Origin: a virus
IMG/VR virus record: IMGVR_UViG_3300015360_000065
Coordinates: 1 to 49,203 of that record
Reading direction: 5' to 3' (one strand)
Length of the DNA: 49,203 nt
A model generated the notes under the pieces. The model searched no databases. It was given only the letters and a program-made list of their open reading frames with translations, and was not told the origin of the DNA. Every line of letters begins with the position of its first letter. Position 1 is the first letter of the stretch. The position numbers and the translations under genes are program-made. Shown here one piece after another: positions 11,088 to 23,444 of the stretch.

Positions 11088-11603
11088 TCACATCGAAACT
11101 TGGATGCCTAGATAATTTCGGTTCTGTGCCTTAGGCAGCTGAGCCACATACCCTACCCCGGGAGCGGGGGCTGCGGGGTTGCTAGATAGGGTTAATTCGT
11201 CCTCTTTGGTCCAGAGACCTCTAAGAGACAGATACAGGGAGTCATTTGGACTGTACACAAGAGGGATCGCAGGGCCTGATTGCCTAGATGCATACGTGTA
11301 CCGCTCGTACGAACTGGTAGAAATAAGGCAGCCGCCAAAGAACATGGTGGCATAACGATAGGCCGTCTGCTGTCGAGTCACGGCGGTATAGTCGTCCCCC
11401 AATTCGTCCGAACCCCAAAGGAGGAAGCCTCCAAATGGGCCCGTGCTGTACGTAACTACCCGATCATCCCCTTGGACTCCCACCCACTGGACTCCCTGTC
11501 CCCCAGCCCAACCGGATGCCACCATGGCAGTCGAAACCGTGACGGTCGCAGAATCGCCCTTGAAAAAAACAACACAGTCTTGTGATCGTATGATCTCAGG
11601 CAT
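11088..11603 (-). CDS. Virion-type protein, third of three tandem paralogues
   Basis: A 171-residue protein homologous to the two genes just upstream. All three share an N-terminal CxVxxKGD-like strand, TVSxAMxxSGWAGGQGVQW, GGFLLWGSDE, a YERxTYASRQSGP block and LxLRGxWTKEDExTLS. The pattern of short strands and Gly/Ser turns suggests an all-beta protein, perhaps a decoration, head-tail or fibre-type protein. It is the most divergent of the three. DNA identity with the others is high at 11271-11299 (29 identical nt). No family is recognised. Confidence 0.65.
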   Translation of the reverse strand: MPEIIRSQDCVVFFKGDSATVTVSTAMVASGWAGGQGVQWVGVQGDDRVVTYSTGPFGGFLLWGSDELGDDYTAVTRQQTAYRYATMFFGGCLISTSSYERYTYASRQSGPAIPLVYSPNDSLYLSLRGLWTKEDELTLSSNPAAPAPGVGYVAQLPKAQNRNYLGIQVSM

Positions 11604-19318: not shown

Positions 19319-20227
19319 CTATGTAACTACGAGGCGAATGATGACATCCGCATAATCGTTGAAACTGTAGCCACTAATACGCAAAGTCTCTTCGTAAATG
19401 CCGGGCATCAGACCCTCTACAGGCTCGACCAGCACCGTGATACTCTGCACCGTGCTAGCAGGCAGGGTGCCTGTCACGGGAGTAAAGCTAGCCAGCCAGC
19501 TCTGCGAGAGTCCGGTCAGGCGAGCGATCTGGTAATCCAGGACTGATCCGGACGGCCCAGAGTTCTGCACCGTAAATTGCTGAGTCGCGATAGCTGGGAA
19601 GGGTCCGCTAATAGGACGTGATACGACGTAGGTAACGAGACCTGGACTGATCGAGACAACCGCCTTAGGTCGCACCGTGATCGTAATGGGGAGTACCTGG
19701 GGCGAATTGGTCGATGACCCGTCCTGGAGCGATATGGACCCTGAGTAGGGGCTGGACGTGGTCAGGAGGTCTGTGGAGTCCACCGAGACGTCAAAGACAC
19801 CGGACTGGTTAGACGCGAGGTGGGGTATAATGGCTGGATTCGTGCGGATATAGACAGCCGACGCGACCAATGTCGTGCTGAGCAAAGACCCGTAAACCCC
19901 TGTGTTGGTAACTCGCCCGGTCAGGGGTAGGCTGTAGCCCCGTCCTTCGTCGACGACGAAAACCAAAGCACTAGGAGGGCCTACCAGGATAGAGGGTCGG
20001 TAATTAGCTACGAGGGACTGGATAGACTCACTCATCCCCTCCACGACTGCCCCAGGCAGGGGGGTCGAATCCCTTAAGATCCCATATGGGGTCGTGATAT
20101 TTTTTATCATGAATGTCGGGACGGCTCCCGACACATCCATGACAGTGGTCCAGCGCCACACACGACCGTTCAGCGTGATGCTGAACTCGACATTTTGGGA
20201 GCTAATATTGGCAGCAGAGATCGACAA
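19319..20227 (-). CDS. Virion protein with BACON/Ig-like domains
   Basis: A 302-residue all-beta protein. The last 100 residues match the style of BACON or Ig-like surface domains: VSISPGLVTYVVSR, ATQQFTVQNSGPSGSVLDYQI, QSWLASFTPVTGTLPAS, then VEPVEGLMPGIYEETLRISG. A second, looser Ig-like repeat precedes it (residues 80-185). Such domains bind glycans or proteins and are common in tail or capsid surface proteins. The start is TTG at 20227, with a strong GGAGGA nine bases upstream. It is the first gene after the CRISPR region and so probably opens the structural operon. Confidence 0.7.
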   Translation of the reverse strand: MSISAANISSQNVEFSITLNGRVWRWTTVMDVSGAVPTFMIKNITTPYGILRDSTPLPGAVVEGMSESIQSLVANYRPSILVGPPSALVFVVDEGRGYSLPLTGRVTNTGVYGSLLSTTLVASAVYIRTNPAIIPHLASNQSGVFDVSVDSTDLLTTSSPYSGSISLQDGSSTNSPQVLPITITVRPKAVVSISPGLVTYVVSRPISGPFPAIATQQFTVQNSGPSGSVLDYQIARLTGLSQSWLASFTPVTGTLPASTVQSITVLVEPVEGLMPGIYEETLRISGYSFNDYADVIIRLVVT

Positions 20228-20228
20228 A

Positions 20229-20262
20229 GACTATAGTCCTCCACATATAGTCTGACTATAAG
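20229..20262. promoter_or_regulatory. Palindromic GACTATA cluster between structural operon and CRISPR array
   Basis: A perfect 10-nt palindrome GACTATAGTC (20229-20238) is followed by a perfect 15-nt inverted repeat TATAGTCTGACTATA (20246-20260). On the minus strand CTTATAGTC here matches the motif at 3053 and 49153 and could drive the BACON gene. On the plus strand TATAAG at 20257-20262 lies 18 nt before the first CRISPR repeat and could be its -10 box. The palindromes could also be operator sites. No binding protein is known. Confidence 0.4.
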
Positions 20263-20279
20263 TAGTTTCAGGCTATTTG

Positions 20280-20325
20280 GTCTCGTCGGTCTAGGTCCTG
20301 ACGAGCAATAATGATCCTCAGATCC
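20280..20325 (+). repeat. Divergent first CRISPR repeat with enlarged loop
   Basis: This 46-nt copy keeps the GTCTCGTCG start and the last 25 nt exactly, but the two loop bases TA are replaced by GTCTAGGTCCTG. The stem is retained and even lengthened (CTCGTC with GACGAG). The unchanged 3' part is the part expected to form the crRNA handle. Confidence 0.85.
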
Positions 20326-20690
20326 CGTAAGTCTCGGGTTTTTCGATAAACCTCAACCGCGTAAGTCTCGTCGTAACGAGCAATAATGATCCTCAGATCC
20401 GCCACTCACGGTGCACCTAGCGTCATAACGCAGTAGCCCGTCTCGTCGTAACGAGCAATAATGATCCTCAGATCCTGCCGAGCGGCCATGAGGGCCGGGC
20501 TCTCACAGTTTGGTCTCGTCGTAACGAGCAATAATGATCCTCAGATCCTGGGTCCTGACCCACCATCGTGACACAGGCGGGAAGTCTCGTCGTAACGAGC
20601 AATAATGATCCTCAGATCCGCGGTCCTGACCCACCATCGTGACACAGGCGGGAAGTCTCGTCGTAACGAGCAATAATGATCCTCAGATCC
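20280..20690 (+). CRISPR. CRISPR array with CasPhi (Cas12j)-like repeat, 6 repeats and 5 spacers
   Basis: Five identical 36-nt repeats lie at 20365-20400, 20440-20475, 20513-20548, 20584-20619 and 20655-20690. A sixth, 20280-20325, has the same ends but about 10 extra nt in the loop. Spacers are 39, 39, 37, 35 and 35 nt. The repeat starts GTCTCGTCGTAACGAGCAAT and ends CAGATCC. It can fold a CTCGT/ACGAG hairpin and a GATC-CTCA-GATC hairpin. From memory this matches the plan of CasPhi repeats (GTCTCG, hairpin, CGAGCAAT, second hairpin, TCC end), which sets the strand as plus. Spacers 4 and 5 differ at only two bases. No cas gene is in the window. The array call is firm; the CasPhi assignment is inference. 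Confidence 0.9.
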
Positions 20691-20782
20691 TGGTCTGCCA
20701 AAAAGCGTGAGTTTTCAAAGAGCTGGACCCTGGATCGCGAGCGATCCTTGATCCTGATCCAACTCTACACCGGGACCTCAGG

Positions 20783-20804
20783 CGCCCGACCCTAAATTGA
20801 ATCT
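20783..20804 (-). promoter_or_regulatory. Shared 22-nt intergenic element, copy 1
   Basis: The plus strand CGCCCGACCCTAAATTGAAT plus CT matches 48489-48510 (CGCCCGGCTCTAAATTGAAT plus CT) at 20 of 22 positions. Both are non-coding and lie past a gene end and before the next gene on the minus strand. A promoter or regulator site is possible; no -35/-10 pair is convincing. Confidence 0.3.
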
Positions 20805-20813
20805 TTTTTAGAC

Positions 20814-20847
20814 AAAAAGTGACCCGCGAGAGGATCGGGCCCTTTCT
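20814..20847 (-). terminator. Weak terminator candidate after the sigma-like gene
   Basis: On the minus strand GCCCG can pair with CGGGT over a 9-nt loop, followed after CAC by TTTTT. It lies 23 nt or more past the stop of the sigma-like gene and would separate the replication region from the array. The stem is only 5 bp, so confidence is low. Confidence 0.25.
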
Positions 20848-20869
20848 GAGGCTCCGGACCCCTCGCACA

Positions 20870-21589
20870 TCAGAAACACTCGTCGCCTCCTCGGCCCTGC
20901 CACTGAGGGAGTTTTACCTCCCTCAGTATATTGAAGTGTTTCGAGCTTATGGACGTAAATATCTGATGGTAAGGGACCAGTTTCTCATCCTGCTGGGATG
21001 CCAGCTCCAGAGCTTGGACAGCCCTGAAAAATCGATGCCTGACCCTACCCTGAGTGAGTCCTAATTTTGACGCGACCTCGGACTGACACGTAGTTGTCCA
21101 CATACCCACCAGGATCTCGACATCGACCAATATTTTCTTAGTGCCCTGGCAAATCGGACAAACCCCGTCGACTGAGAAGCATTTGGGGCAGGTCAGCTCG
21201 CACGGAAATACTGAGCGTAAGTCGACTCGCATATCCTCCTCCAGTACCTGAGGTATACGGAGGAGAAATCTCAAACGTTGAATCCCTCGGGCCAGTCTAT
21301 AACTGACAGCAGCCTGCGTTACCCCGAAAATTGTAGCAATGTCGGCCTGTCGCTTTTTGTGAATTACGTATAGTGTAATTAGATCCGCCTCACGATCTGG
21401 GATGCGATCTAGCAGAGGGACGATCCGACTCTCATAATCCCCGTCAGGGATAAGGCTCGCCAGAGATTCGGCTAGATCGATCTCATCTAGCTCCGGATCC
21501 TCGTCCTCGGCATCGTACCTAGGGTCGTCATGAGACGAGAATCTCGACAAATCTGACGGGTCTACTGAGATTAAATAACCAGTACTCAT
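20870..21589 (-). CDS. Sigma-region-4-like DNA-binding protein with zinc ribbon
   Basis: A 239-residue protein with two helix-turn-helix units. The first (residues 60-110, DRIPDREADLITLYVIHKKR, then ADIATIFGVTQAAVSYRLARG) is like sigma-70 region 4. A zinc ribbon follows with Cys134, 137, 144 and 147 (CPKC, CPIC). The second HTH is at 166-195 (CQSEVASKLGLTQGRVRHRFF). It has no sigma region 2, so it may be an activator, an anti-promoter factor or a phage sigma-like subunit that works with another protein. It follows the NusG-nuclease gene by 7 nt and is the last gene before the CRISPR region. It is a fair candidate for the phage's late-gene transcription switch. Confidence 0.7.
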   Translation of the reverse strand: MSTGYLISVDPSDLSRFSSHDDPRYDAEDEDPELDEIDLAESLASLIPDGDYESRIVPLLDRIPDREADLITLYVIHKKRQADIATIFGVTQAAVSYRLARGIQRLRFLLRIPQVLEEDMRVDLRSVFPCELTCPKCFSVDGVCPICQGTKKILVDVEILVGMWTTTCQSEVASKLGLTQGRVRHRFFRAVQALELASQQDEKLVPYHQIFTSISSKHFNILREVKLPQWQGRGGDECF

Positions 21590-21596
21590 TTGGACG

Positions 21597-23444
21597 TTAC
21601 CTACTTGCTTCCAAAAAAGATCCGAGCAGAGACTCAGGTGTAATAGCTAAAGCTATCAGCTTCTCTGCTGCTCCATGTGGGTCTACATCTAGAGGCGTAA
21701 CGTGATAACCAACAGCCTGGAGGGTCATTAGTTCGTAGTTGATTCTGACCTGAGGCTCCGAATTACGCAACCTCTCGTATTGGTTCTTCGTCAATCCAGA
21801 GAGGCCGGACTTATATACCCCCGTGACGGAACCAAATGTCTGAACCAGACTTTTCAATATCTTTTTTGGCACTCGCGGGACGCCCGGGATATTATCCGAG
21901 GTATCCCCATAAAAGGCCCGTAGCTCCAACACTTTATCCGGGGGTACGCCCCAGGCCTTACGTACTGAGTCAGGATCGTGCAGGACCTCATTCCTGCTCC
22001 CCTGAGCTGGGAGCAGGACTTGCGTATTATCGGTTACGAGCTGGAGGAAGTCACGGTCGGTGGAGAAAATGACGTTTGATTGCTCCGCCATACCAGGCTC
22101 ACGCACCAGAGTCGCGATCACGTCGTCGGCCTCCTCATCGGGATTCCAAGCCTGAGTAACACCCAGGTTAGGCAGGATGTCTTTAAGAAAAAGAATCGGG
22201 TCAAAAGCACCAGTCTCCGTTACGACAGCTAGACTCTGTGTACTTCTCTGGCCCTTATAGTCACCGAACTGAGCCTTACGTCTCTTATTCGACCCGTCCC
22301 ACACCACATGTAGGACTGCATCAGGATACCTCTTCTTTAATGATCCTAAGCTCCTGAGGAATCCTAGGATCATCCCAGTAGGCCGACCTGAGGGATCTAG
22401 GAGACTCGACATCCCGGGTGCGTAAAAACAGCGGAAAACCAGGTTGAGCCCATCTACCAGCACATTTTGAACCATGACACTATCTTTCTGTTTGTTCTCT
22501 CGAGCCAGGGATCTAGACAGACTGTCTACGTCCTGCCAGAGTGTTTGAATCCTACCTAGGACCCCTCCCACCCTAGCTAAGTCGAGGACTTTCACCTGTA
22601 TGTGCGCCAGCGTCTCCTCACGCACGGGATGCTTGGGATTATCGACAAATTGATAGAAGATGTGTAATGGAGCGGCCCTAGTGTCCCAATCCACTAATCG
22701 AGCTAGCTCACGAGTCCGGAGAGACAGTTCTTGATTTGGTTTGACCAGGACTCGGTCGAAGTAGACCAGCTCATAGAGCCTGTTAGCGGAGCTACCTAAA
22801 ATGCTGATACGCTGATACTGACTGAATGTCTCCAGCATTCTATTCGGAGATTCAGTCCAAGCAAAAATGGGTTGAACTAACTCGGTCCAATCTTTCAGAT
22901 TATTCAAACGATTCGAAGCTGACGACAGGGGTTGTCTCTCCACCACCGTGAGGAACGAGCGAGGCAGGGTCAGCAAGGCCTGCTTAGATCGCAGCTTGAT
23001 AAAAACCTGCACCTGGTCCTGGTAGTCCTCCACCACAGTAGCTGTCATGCTCCTGTAGGGGCCTGTCGTGATACAGACCAGGTCACCTATACCTATGCCT
23101 TGGTTTGTCAGCTGTTTTATCTGATCCTGCATACGCAGGATTGCCTGATCCTGGACGGTAGAAAGTCTTCGATAGCGACTCTCCGAGCCCGGCTTGATCA
23201 GGACAGTCTGACAGTACTTCGAATTCTCCAGCTTGAAATAGTCAGCTGAAGGGCGTTTATCCAACTTAACGAAGCAATACCCCTCCATCAGATAGTGAAT
23301 CACGCGGTCCTGACCCACCATCGTGACACAGGCGGGAACGAAAACCTCAGCACCCTTGAGGGTACGCAAGATAGCTCGCTTAACCTGGTCGGGGTCGTCA
23401 TGCTCACCCCGAGGGGTTAGCTCCACTACGATCCACTCACCCAT
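21597..23444 (-). CDS. Fusion of a NusG-like elongation factor and a 5'-3' exonuclease (FEN type)
   Basis: A 615-residue two-part protein. Residues 1-170 look like NusG: an NGN domain (GEWIVVELTPRGE, VFVPACVTM, EGYCFVKL, VLIKPGS) and a KOW domain (GIGIGDLVCITTGPYRSMTATVV, 116-138). Residues 170-320 are helical and unassigned. Residues 324-615 are a 5'-nuclease/PIN domain: VLVDGLNLVFRCFY (Asp331), VVWDG (383), DEEADDVIATL (436-446), STDRDFLQL (462-469) and GDTSDNIPGVP (513-523), as in T5/T7-type flap exonucleases. An inner ATG at 22475 exists but has no good ribosome site. The start overlaps the dnaX stop (TAATG). The fusion is unusual, and a CRISPR spacer matches residues 36-47. Confidence 0.85.
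   Translation of the reverse strand: MGEWIVVELTPRGEHDDPDQVKRAILRTLKGAEVFVPACVTMVGQDRVIHYLMEGYCFVKLDKRPSADYFKLENSKYCQTVLIKPGSESRYRRLSTVQDQAILRMQDQIKQLTNQGIGIGDLVCITTGPYRSMTATVVEDYQDQVQVFIKLRSKQALLTLPRSFLTVVERQPLSSASNRLNNLKDWTELVQPIFAWTESPNRMLETFSQYQRISILGSSANRLYELVYFDRVLVKPNQELSLRTRELARLVDWDTRAAPLHIFYQFVDNPKHPVREETLAHIQVKVLDLARVGGVLGRIQTLWQDVDSLSRSLARENKQKDSVMVQNVLVDGLNLVFRCFYAPGMSSLLDPSGRPTGMILGFLRSLGSLKKRYPDAVLHVVWDGSNKRRKAQFGDYKGQRSTQSLAVVTETGAFDPILFLKDILPNLGVTQAWNPDEEADDVIATLVREPGMAEQSNVIFSTDRDFLQLVTDNTQVLLPAQGSRNEVLHDPDSVRKAWGVPPDKVLELRAFYGDTSDNIPGVPRVPKKILKSLVQTFGSVTGVYKSGLSGLTKNQYERLRNSEPQVRINYELMTLQAVGYHVTPLDVDPHGAAEKLIALAITPESLLGSFLEASR
23304..23338 (+). other. Self-match of CRISPR spacer 5 (35/35) and spacer 4 (33/35)
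   Basis: These 35 nt are identical to the spacer at 20620-20654. The spacer at 20549-20583 differs only in its first two bases. The match is on the plus strand in the spacer's own orientation, inside the NusG-like part of the fusion gene. The three bases before it are CAC, not the T-rich motif expected for a CasPhi-type PAM. A plus-strand crRNA would be antisense to the gene's mRNA. Confidence 0.95.

Follow-up and report, generated by a model that had tools for sequence, protein, structure and literature searches.

The viral DNA analysed here (the window, i.e. the whole stretch of 49,203 nucleotides) contains a CRISPR array which, judged by its repeat, is of the CasPhi (Cas12j, type V-J) kind, and two of its five spacers match a gene of the same phage. 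The self-match is real, correctly located and not a product of chance. In other respects the array belongs to a known kind; what makes it unusual is that a phage-borne CasPhi array has an intact, doubled and PAM-permissive match to its own carrier. The explanation we favour, held tentatively and at a little less than an even chance, is that this is a CasPhi array for the exclusion of sibling phages which has recently gained self-matching spacers. Phage arrays are believed to target rivals or hosts, and in the viral case studied best, mutations in the carrier's own locus prevent self-targeting. With the window array one can ask cleanly how a virus lives with a guide directed at its own genome, and how spacers enter arrays that lack Cas1.

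The array and its match to the NusG-FEN gene

The array consists of five exact 36-nt repeats (GTCTCGTCGTAACGAGCAATAATGATCCTCAGATCC; starts at 20365, 20440, 20513, 20584 and 20655), one degenerate terminal repeat and five spacers which, from left to right, are 39, 39, 37, 35 and 35 nt long. The features referred to below are as follows.

19319..20227, minus strand: 302-aa protein, downstream of the array; order conserved in relatives
20280..20690, minus strand (crRNA strand): CRISPR array, from its repeats, spacers and hairpin fold
20280..20325, minus strand: degenerate sixth repeat with an insertion of about 10 nt in the hairpin loop; trailer end, hence leader on the right
20326..20364, minus strand: spacer 1, no convincing target in the window, INPHARED and PLSDB comparisons
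20401..20439, minus strand: spacer 2, no target found in the same comparisons
20476..20512, minus strand: spacer 3, no target found in the same comparisons
20549..20583, minus strand: spacer 4, first 33 crRNA bases equal to the protospacer of spacer 5, last two PAM-distal bases CA and not GC
20620..20654, minus strand: spacer 5, leader-proximal, 35/35 to the phage's own NusG-FEN gene
20691..20869, minus strand: presumed leader, between the sigma-factor gene and the first repeat
20870..21589, minus strand: sigma-70 region-4 protein, upstream of the array; order conserved in relatives
21597..23444, minus strand: target gene, NusG-like (NGN+KOW) domain and FEN-type 5'-3' exonuclease, 615 aa
23304..23338, minus strand: protospacer in the NusG-like part of the fusion gene, crRNA sense to the mRNA
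23339..23341, minus strand: PAM position, 5'-TCG-3', which fits TBN

A preliminary description of this DNA had equated spacer 5 with 23304-23338 at 35 positions and spacer 4 at 33, and had held a chance match of this length to be negligible; base comparison and shuffling bore out both statements. Spacer 4 differs from spacer 5 and from the gene only at its two leftmost plus-strand bases, which are TG where the others have GC. The 33-nt core common to the two spacers and the gene occurs exactly three times in the window and, with up to 3 mismatches allowed, not once in 100 dinucleotide shuffles. The match between spacer 5 and the gene ends exactly at the repeat boundaries and the flanks are unrelated on both sides, save for one shared C. 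Identical stretches of 69 bases are present inside the array. Spacers 1-3 matched the window at no more than 24 of 39 positions, a level also reached by shuffled spacers, and a comparison of spacers 1-3 and 5 with INPHARED and PLSDB gave nothing above chance. No Rfam family matched the array region, and no convincing promoter was found in the presumed leader.

Two short repetitions were observed within the array. The degenerate terminal repeat has in its loop (20294-20302) the 9-mer GGTCCTGAC, a microhomology which recurs at 20551 and 20622 (spacers 4 and 5) and at 23306 in the target gene, with an expected count in the window of 0.19 per strand. The sequence CGTAAGTCTCG opens spacer 1 (20326-20336) and recurs at 20360-20370, across the junction of spacer 1 and the next repeat, and spacer 1 itself may contain a short array-derived copy.

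The protospacer covers codons 36-47 in the N-terminal part of ORF 21597-23444, and its earlier placement within the NusG-like part of a NusG-nuclease fusion was confirmed. The NusG-like part comprises the first ~175 residues; a profile of seven relatives matches NusG PDB 2lq8 (E=1.2e-7) and the predicted fold has a mean pLDDT of 84. Pfam KOW and NusG match the fusion proteins of the relatives, and the remainder of the ORF is a FEN-type 5'-3' exonuclease. The NusG-FEN fusion in the target gene is genuine; it is kept in 6/6 relatives.

CasPhi type, crRNA strand and protospacer flank

Read on the minus strand the repeat is GGATCTGAGGATCATTATTGCTCGTTACGACGAGAC, which folds into a 3' hairpin CTCGT-loop-ACGAG. 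The crRNA repeat of CasPhi-2 (Cas12j-2) ends in ATTGCCCCTCACGAGGGGAC and is located 5' of the guide (PMC11048056). A closely related repeat was found in a syntenic relative, G006 (IMGVR_UViG_3300037722_000745, 323 kb), whose array has seven repeats CTGGGGACCGATCCTGATTGCTCGCTGCGGCGAGAC (minus-strand sense) and spacers of 36-38 nt. Directly beside that array lies a 718-aa protein which has alignments of nearly full length with CasPhi-2 (E=2e-159) and with Cas12j-SF05 (E=2e-150), and aligns with CasPhi-3 as well; it is a full-length CasPhi, the RuvC region of which aligns with active enzymes. The window, CasPhi-2 and G006 repeats have in common the end ATTGC(T/C)C-stem-loop-stem-GAC, and the stem pairs CTCGT/ACGAG in the window, CTCGC/GCGAG in G006 and CTCAT/ATGAG in a further phage array (G003) represent compensatory changes. 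The 36-nt repeat with the CasPhi hairpin (ATTG-C-rich stem-loop-GAC) lies directly 5' of the spacer. Its length and that of the spacers (35-39 nt) are in agreement with the array of Cas12j-SF05 (CasPhi-SF05), which has a 36-nt repeat and spacers of 35-38 nt (PMC10663539), and the spacers of both the window and G006 are of the roughly 35-38 nt found in type V-J. Because the repeat end and hairpin are like those of CasPhi-2 and of the repeat adjoining the G006 CasPhi, the window array is on repeat sequence of the CasPhi kind, as had been proposed at the outset.

The exact repeat was not found in IMG/VR outside the window, nor was its exact 20-nt end found in GTDB genomes; hence no host array with the window repeat was seen. 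A search of IMG/VR with the degenerate repeat gave mostly single matches at chance level, save for the small G003 array.

Three features, namely the orientation of the CasPhi repeat, the presence of the degenerate terminal repeat at the left end and the place where the CasPhi gene lies in G006, lead us to infer that the crRNAs are produced from the minus strand. The degenerate repeat marks the trailer end, which would place the leader on the right (20691-20869) and make spacers 5 and 4 the newest. Since the array and the target gene both lie on the minus strand, the crRNA would have the sense of the mRNA and would not pair with it; a crRNA antisense to the fusion-gene mRNA, as had been suggested earlier, is not what this orientation gives.

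The 5' flank of the protospacer on the minus strand is CTGAGGTTTTCG (GTTTTCG), giving the PAM triplet TCG. In the preliminary description the match was said to be preceded by CAC, which is not T-rich, so that a CasPhi enzyme might not cut it. That triplet lies on the PAM-distal side, and TCG on the PAM side fits the TBN (B = C, G or T) recognized by CasPhi-2 and Cas12j-SF05 (PMC9942878; PMC10663539). The own site would therefore be expected to be permissive for, and cut by, the two nearest characterised CasPhi enzymes. As a mark of a CasPhi-type array the TCG flank is weak, since TBN fits 19% of the positions in the gene, and its presence is no evidence of selection. A synonymous escape from the PAM (TTT to TTC at F35, where G006 and G007 have TTT) was considered and rejected, as it needs a TTN-strict enzyme, and TCG is acceptable to the enzymes closest to this system.

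Spacers 4 and 5 are identical at the PAM-side end; the two final PAM-distal bases are their sole difference. Cas12j-SF05 cuts with guides of at least 17 nt, and 22 nt of the target strand are traceable in it (PMC10663539). Because the differences are confined to the PAM-distal end and so short a guide is sufficient for SF05, the two spacers should amount to one functional guide.

Relatives, array location and the search for an effector

The NusG-FEN gene and its closest relative were used as an alignment to search for relatives, which yielded five more, G006 among them. The window is a linear fragment of 49 kb; of the relatives, the larger ones span 94-411 kb. The order exo, sigma factor, 302-aa, 96-aa and 410-aa protein was kept in the relatives wherever it could be tested, and G006 and the window have in common the order exo-sigma-p302-p96-p410-terminase. 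The gap between the sigma-factor and 302-aa genes is 642 bp with the array in the window (20228-20869) and about 90 bp in G005, G006 and G008, and in G001 and G007 it holds an HNH-like ORF (L047 10454-11702; L051 12012-13773; HNH label assigned by eye from the sequence). On this comparison the gap is an insertion hotspot.

Unlike the G006 array, the window array does not lie beside an effector; no CasPhi was found in the 49-kb fragment, and the array stands in a viral genome without adjoining cas genes. In searches of IMG/VR, GTDB and INPHARED the only CasPhi found was that of G006. Cas1 was found neither in the window nor in six other phage records (relatives G001, G005, G006, G007 and G008, and the array carrier G003). 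None of the six spacers of the G006 array matched its own 323 kb, which argues that self-matching is not a general habit of CasPhi arrays, and neither of the two G003 spacers matched its own genome.

Several elements resembling the repeat were observed in other phages. The G003 array (IMGVR_UViG_3300009095_001812, 203269-203430, locus L012) has two spacers and a CasPhi-like repeat hairpin, and neither CasPhi nor Cas1 was found in its 208-kb phage contig. G006 has three solitary elements GGTGTAGTCA(C/T)(G/A)CACTCATTGCTCGCTGCGGCGAGAC at 11450, 242052 and 243439 (loci L070 and L082), which carry the exact 20-nt hairpin of that phage's CasPhi repeat behind another 5' part. No adjoining TnpB gene was seen, and the elements look like stand-alone guide RNA ends. 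In G001 (IMGVR_UViG_3300001398_000002) elements of the form GGTGTA...ATTGCTCAGTACGCTGAGAC with a hairpin like that of the CasPhi repeat occur at 141636, 142695 and 147774 (locus L025), a region with several TnpB genes, and the element at 142695 lies just 3' of one of them. This suggests a common scaffold for CasPhi repeats and the omegaRNA-like ends of phage TnpBs. G006 also has, at 194554 (locus L079), a solitary CRISPR repeat that is nearly perfect (end GATTCCCAG vs GGTCCCCAG); it lies at the start of the phage's RuvC-like gene and on the strand of the array.

Origin and possible use of the self-matching spacers

In six relatives only 14-21 of the 35 protospacer bases match, and neither the 30-nt protospacer core nor the 21-nt seed was found exactly in IMG/VR outside the window, which argues that the spacers came from this phage or from a near-identical sibling. 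No sibling allele confined to a rival was found. The match occupies the interval between two repeats precisely, with a single C of flanking homology, and in this the self-match resembles spacer integration and not gene conversion. Translated, the end of spacer 4 would give P at a position that is R or K throughout the relatives, and for this reason it probably reflects an effect of the junction or of copying rather than a different allele. The idea that its CA end was copied from the CA end of the leader was rejected: nothing in G006 supports it, and a single dinucleotide is its whole basis. The two spacers may have arisen by two acquisitions or by one duplication.

Three readings had been offered in the preliminary description, two of which, defence against rivals or siblings and an accident of acquisition, remain; antisense control fails, the crRNA having the sense of the mRNA. 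According to the explanation that we favour, a large phage would have received a stand-alone CasPhi-type (V-J) mini-array at a site flanked by its sigma-factor gene and the conserved 302-aa gene, and the two newest spacers of the array would act as one guide. This guide would be directed at NusG-FEN, a replication/transcription gene, in the phage itself or in a sibling nearly identical to it. A CasPhi encoded elsewhere in the phage genome, or one provided by a co-resident element, would cut the NusG-FEN copy of siblings or close relatives entering the same cell. The perfect match in the carrier would be tolerated if the effector were absent, silent at the time, or of a kind that requires TTN rather than TCG. 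The effector itself, its use in sibling exclusion and the avoidance of self-cutting are the parts which we infer. The exact, non-chance match, the CasPhi repeat, the synteny with G006, the newest position of the spacers and their near-identical source speak for this explanation. Against it stand the lack of an effector in the 49-kb fragment, the TBN-permissive own site, the failure to find a rival-only allele, an own locus which is intact unlike that of the viral precedent, and a G006 array with no self-match in 323 kb.

The main rival is nearly as likely as sibling exclusion. Adaptation machinery acting in trans may have copied the phage's own replicating DNA by accident, either twice or once with a subsequent duplication, leaving useless spacers which persist only because there is no active effector or because they are very young. 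The self-matching spacers are the newest, there is no Cas1 in the window or the six other phage records and no CasPhi in the fragment, and the match fills the spacer with one repeat base of flanking homology, as in spacer integration. Spacers 4 and 5 also differ at the spacer end adjoining the repeat, the expected place of a junction effect, and the P in place of R/K is unlike another allele. Self-matching looks exceptional, with 0/8 spacers of the G006 and G003 arrays matching their own genomes. Two spacers against one site are nevertheless many for a five-spacer array, although a tandem duplication would explain them, and the permissive PAM flank would be harmful if the effector were active.

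We consider it unlikely that CasPhi or an inactive relative, guided by spacers 4 and 5, represses the NusG-FEN gene at the level of DNA. The perfect 35-base match with its permissive TCG flank, the doubled spacer, and the location of array and gene in one syntenic block with the same reading strand would suit such a role; Cas12m represses without cutting (PMC10442227), and repression has been suggested as the role of a phage effector that is defective (PMC7162821). The window phage has no known effector, however, the G006 CasPhi is full-length with a RuvC region aligned to active enzymes, and no relative has a comparable self-match. That the doubled, PAM-permissive guide against the own NusG-FEN gene would be a working part of the life cycle (a timed self-repression or kill switch) is likewise rather improbable. 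Copying of the gene segment into the array, or duplication of a spacer, by the assembler is very unlikely: this is a single assembly without reads which contains 69-base identical stretches, but two bases distinguish the spacer copies, and the match stops at the repeat boundaries, beyond which the flanks are unrelated, a pattern that collapse or a tangle would not produce. Antisense pairing with the fusion-gene mRNA is scarcely credible, as the long exact complementarity would require plus-strand transcription of the array, and the repeat orientation, the left terminal repeat and the G006 gene position all point to a minus-strand crRNA identical to the mRNA.

Sibling exclusion has its nearest parallel in archaeal viruses, where the spacers of mini-arrays are directed at close relatives and their targets lie in the vicinity of the arrays (PMC6858448); some spacers of huge phages also target other phages (PMC7162821). 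The mini-arrays of the Sulfolobales portogloboviruses SPV1/SPV2 resemble that of the window in standing in a viral genome with no cas genes nearby, with spacers close to their own viral lineage and targets near the array (PMC6858448). In SPV1/SPV2 the own locus of the spacer carrier is mutated or deleted (PMC6858448), which prevents self-targeting, whereas the window phage is intact at 35/35 with a TBN-permissive flank, and this is the real oddity of its array. Only its own phage was matched by the window spacers (relatives at most 21/35). The host domain and the CRISPR type are different as well, and there are five spacers here as against one or two there.

The CasPhi-2/Cas12j-SF05 systems of huge phages have, like the window, a phage-borne array with a 36-nt repeat and conserved 3' hairpin and no Cas1. 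The window array differs from these in that it stands alone between two conserved phage genes, with no effector in the 49-kb fragment and with 2/5 of its spacers matching its own phage. Bacterial self-targeting spacers (PMC6990116) likewise match the genome of their carrier exactly; in the window it is a phage that carries the array, and the match is present twice, in neighbouring spacers at the leader end.
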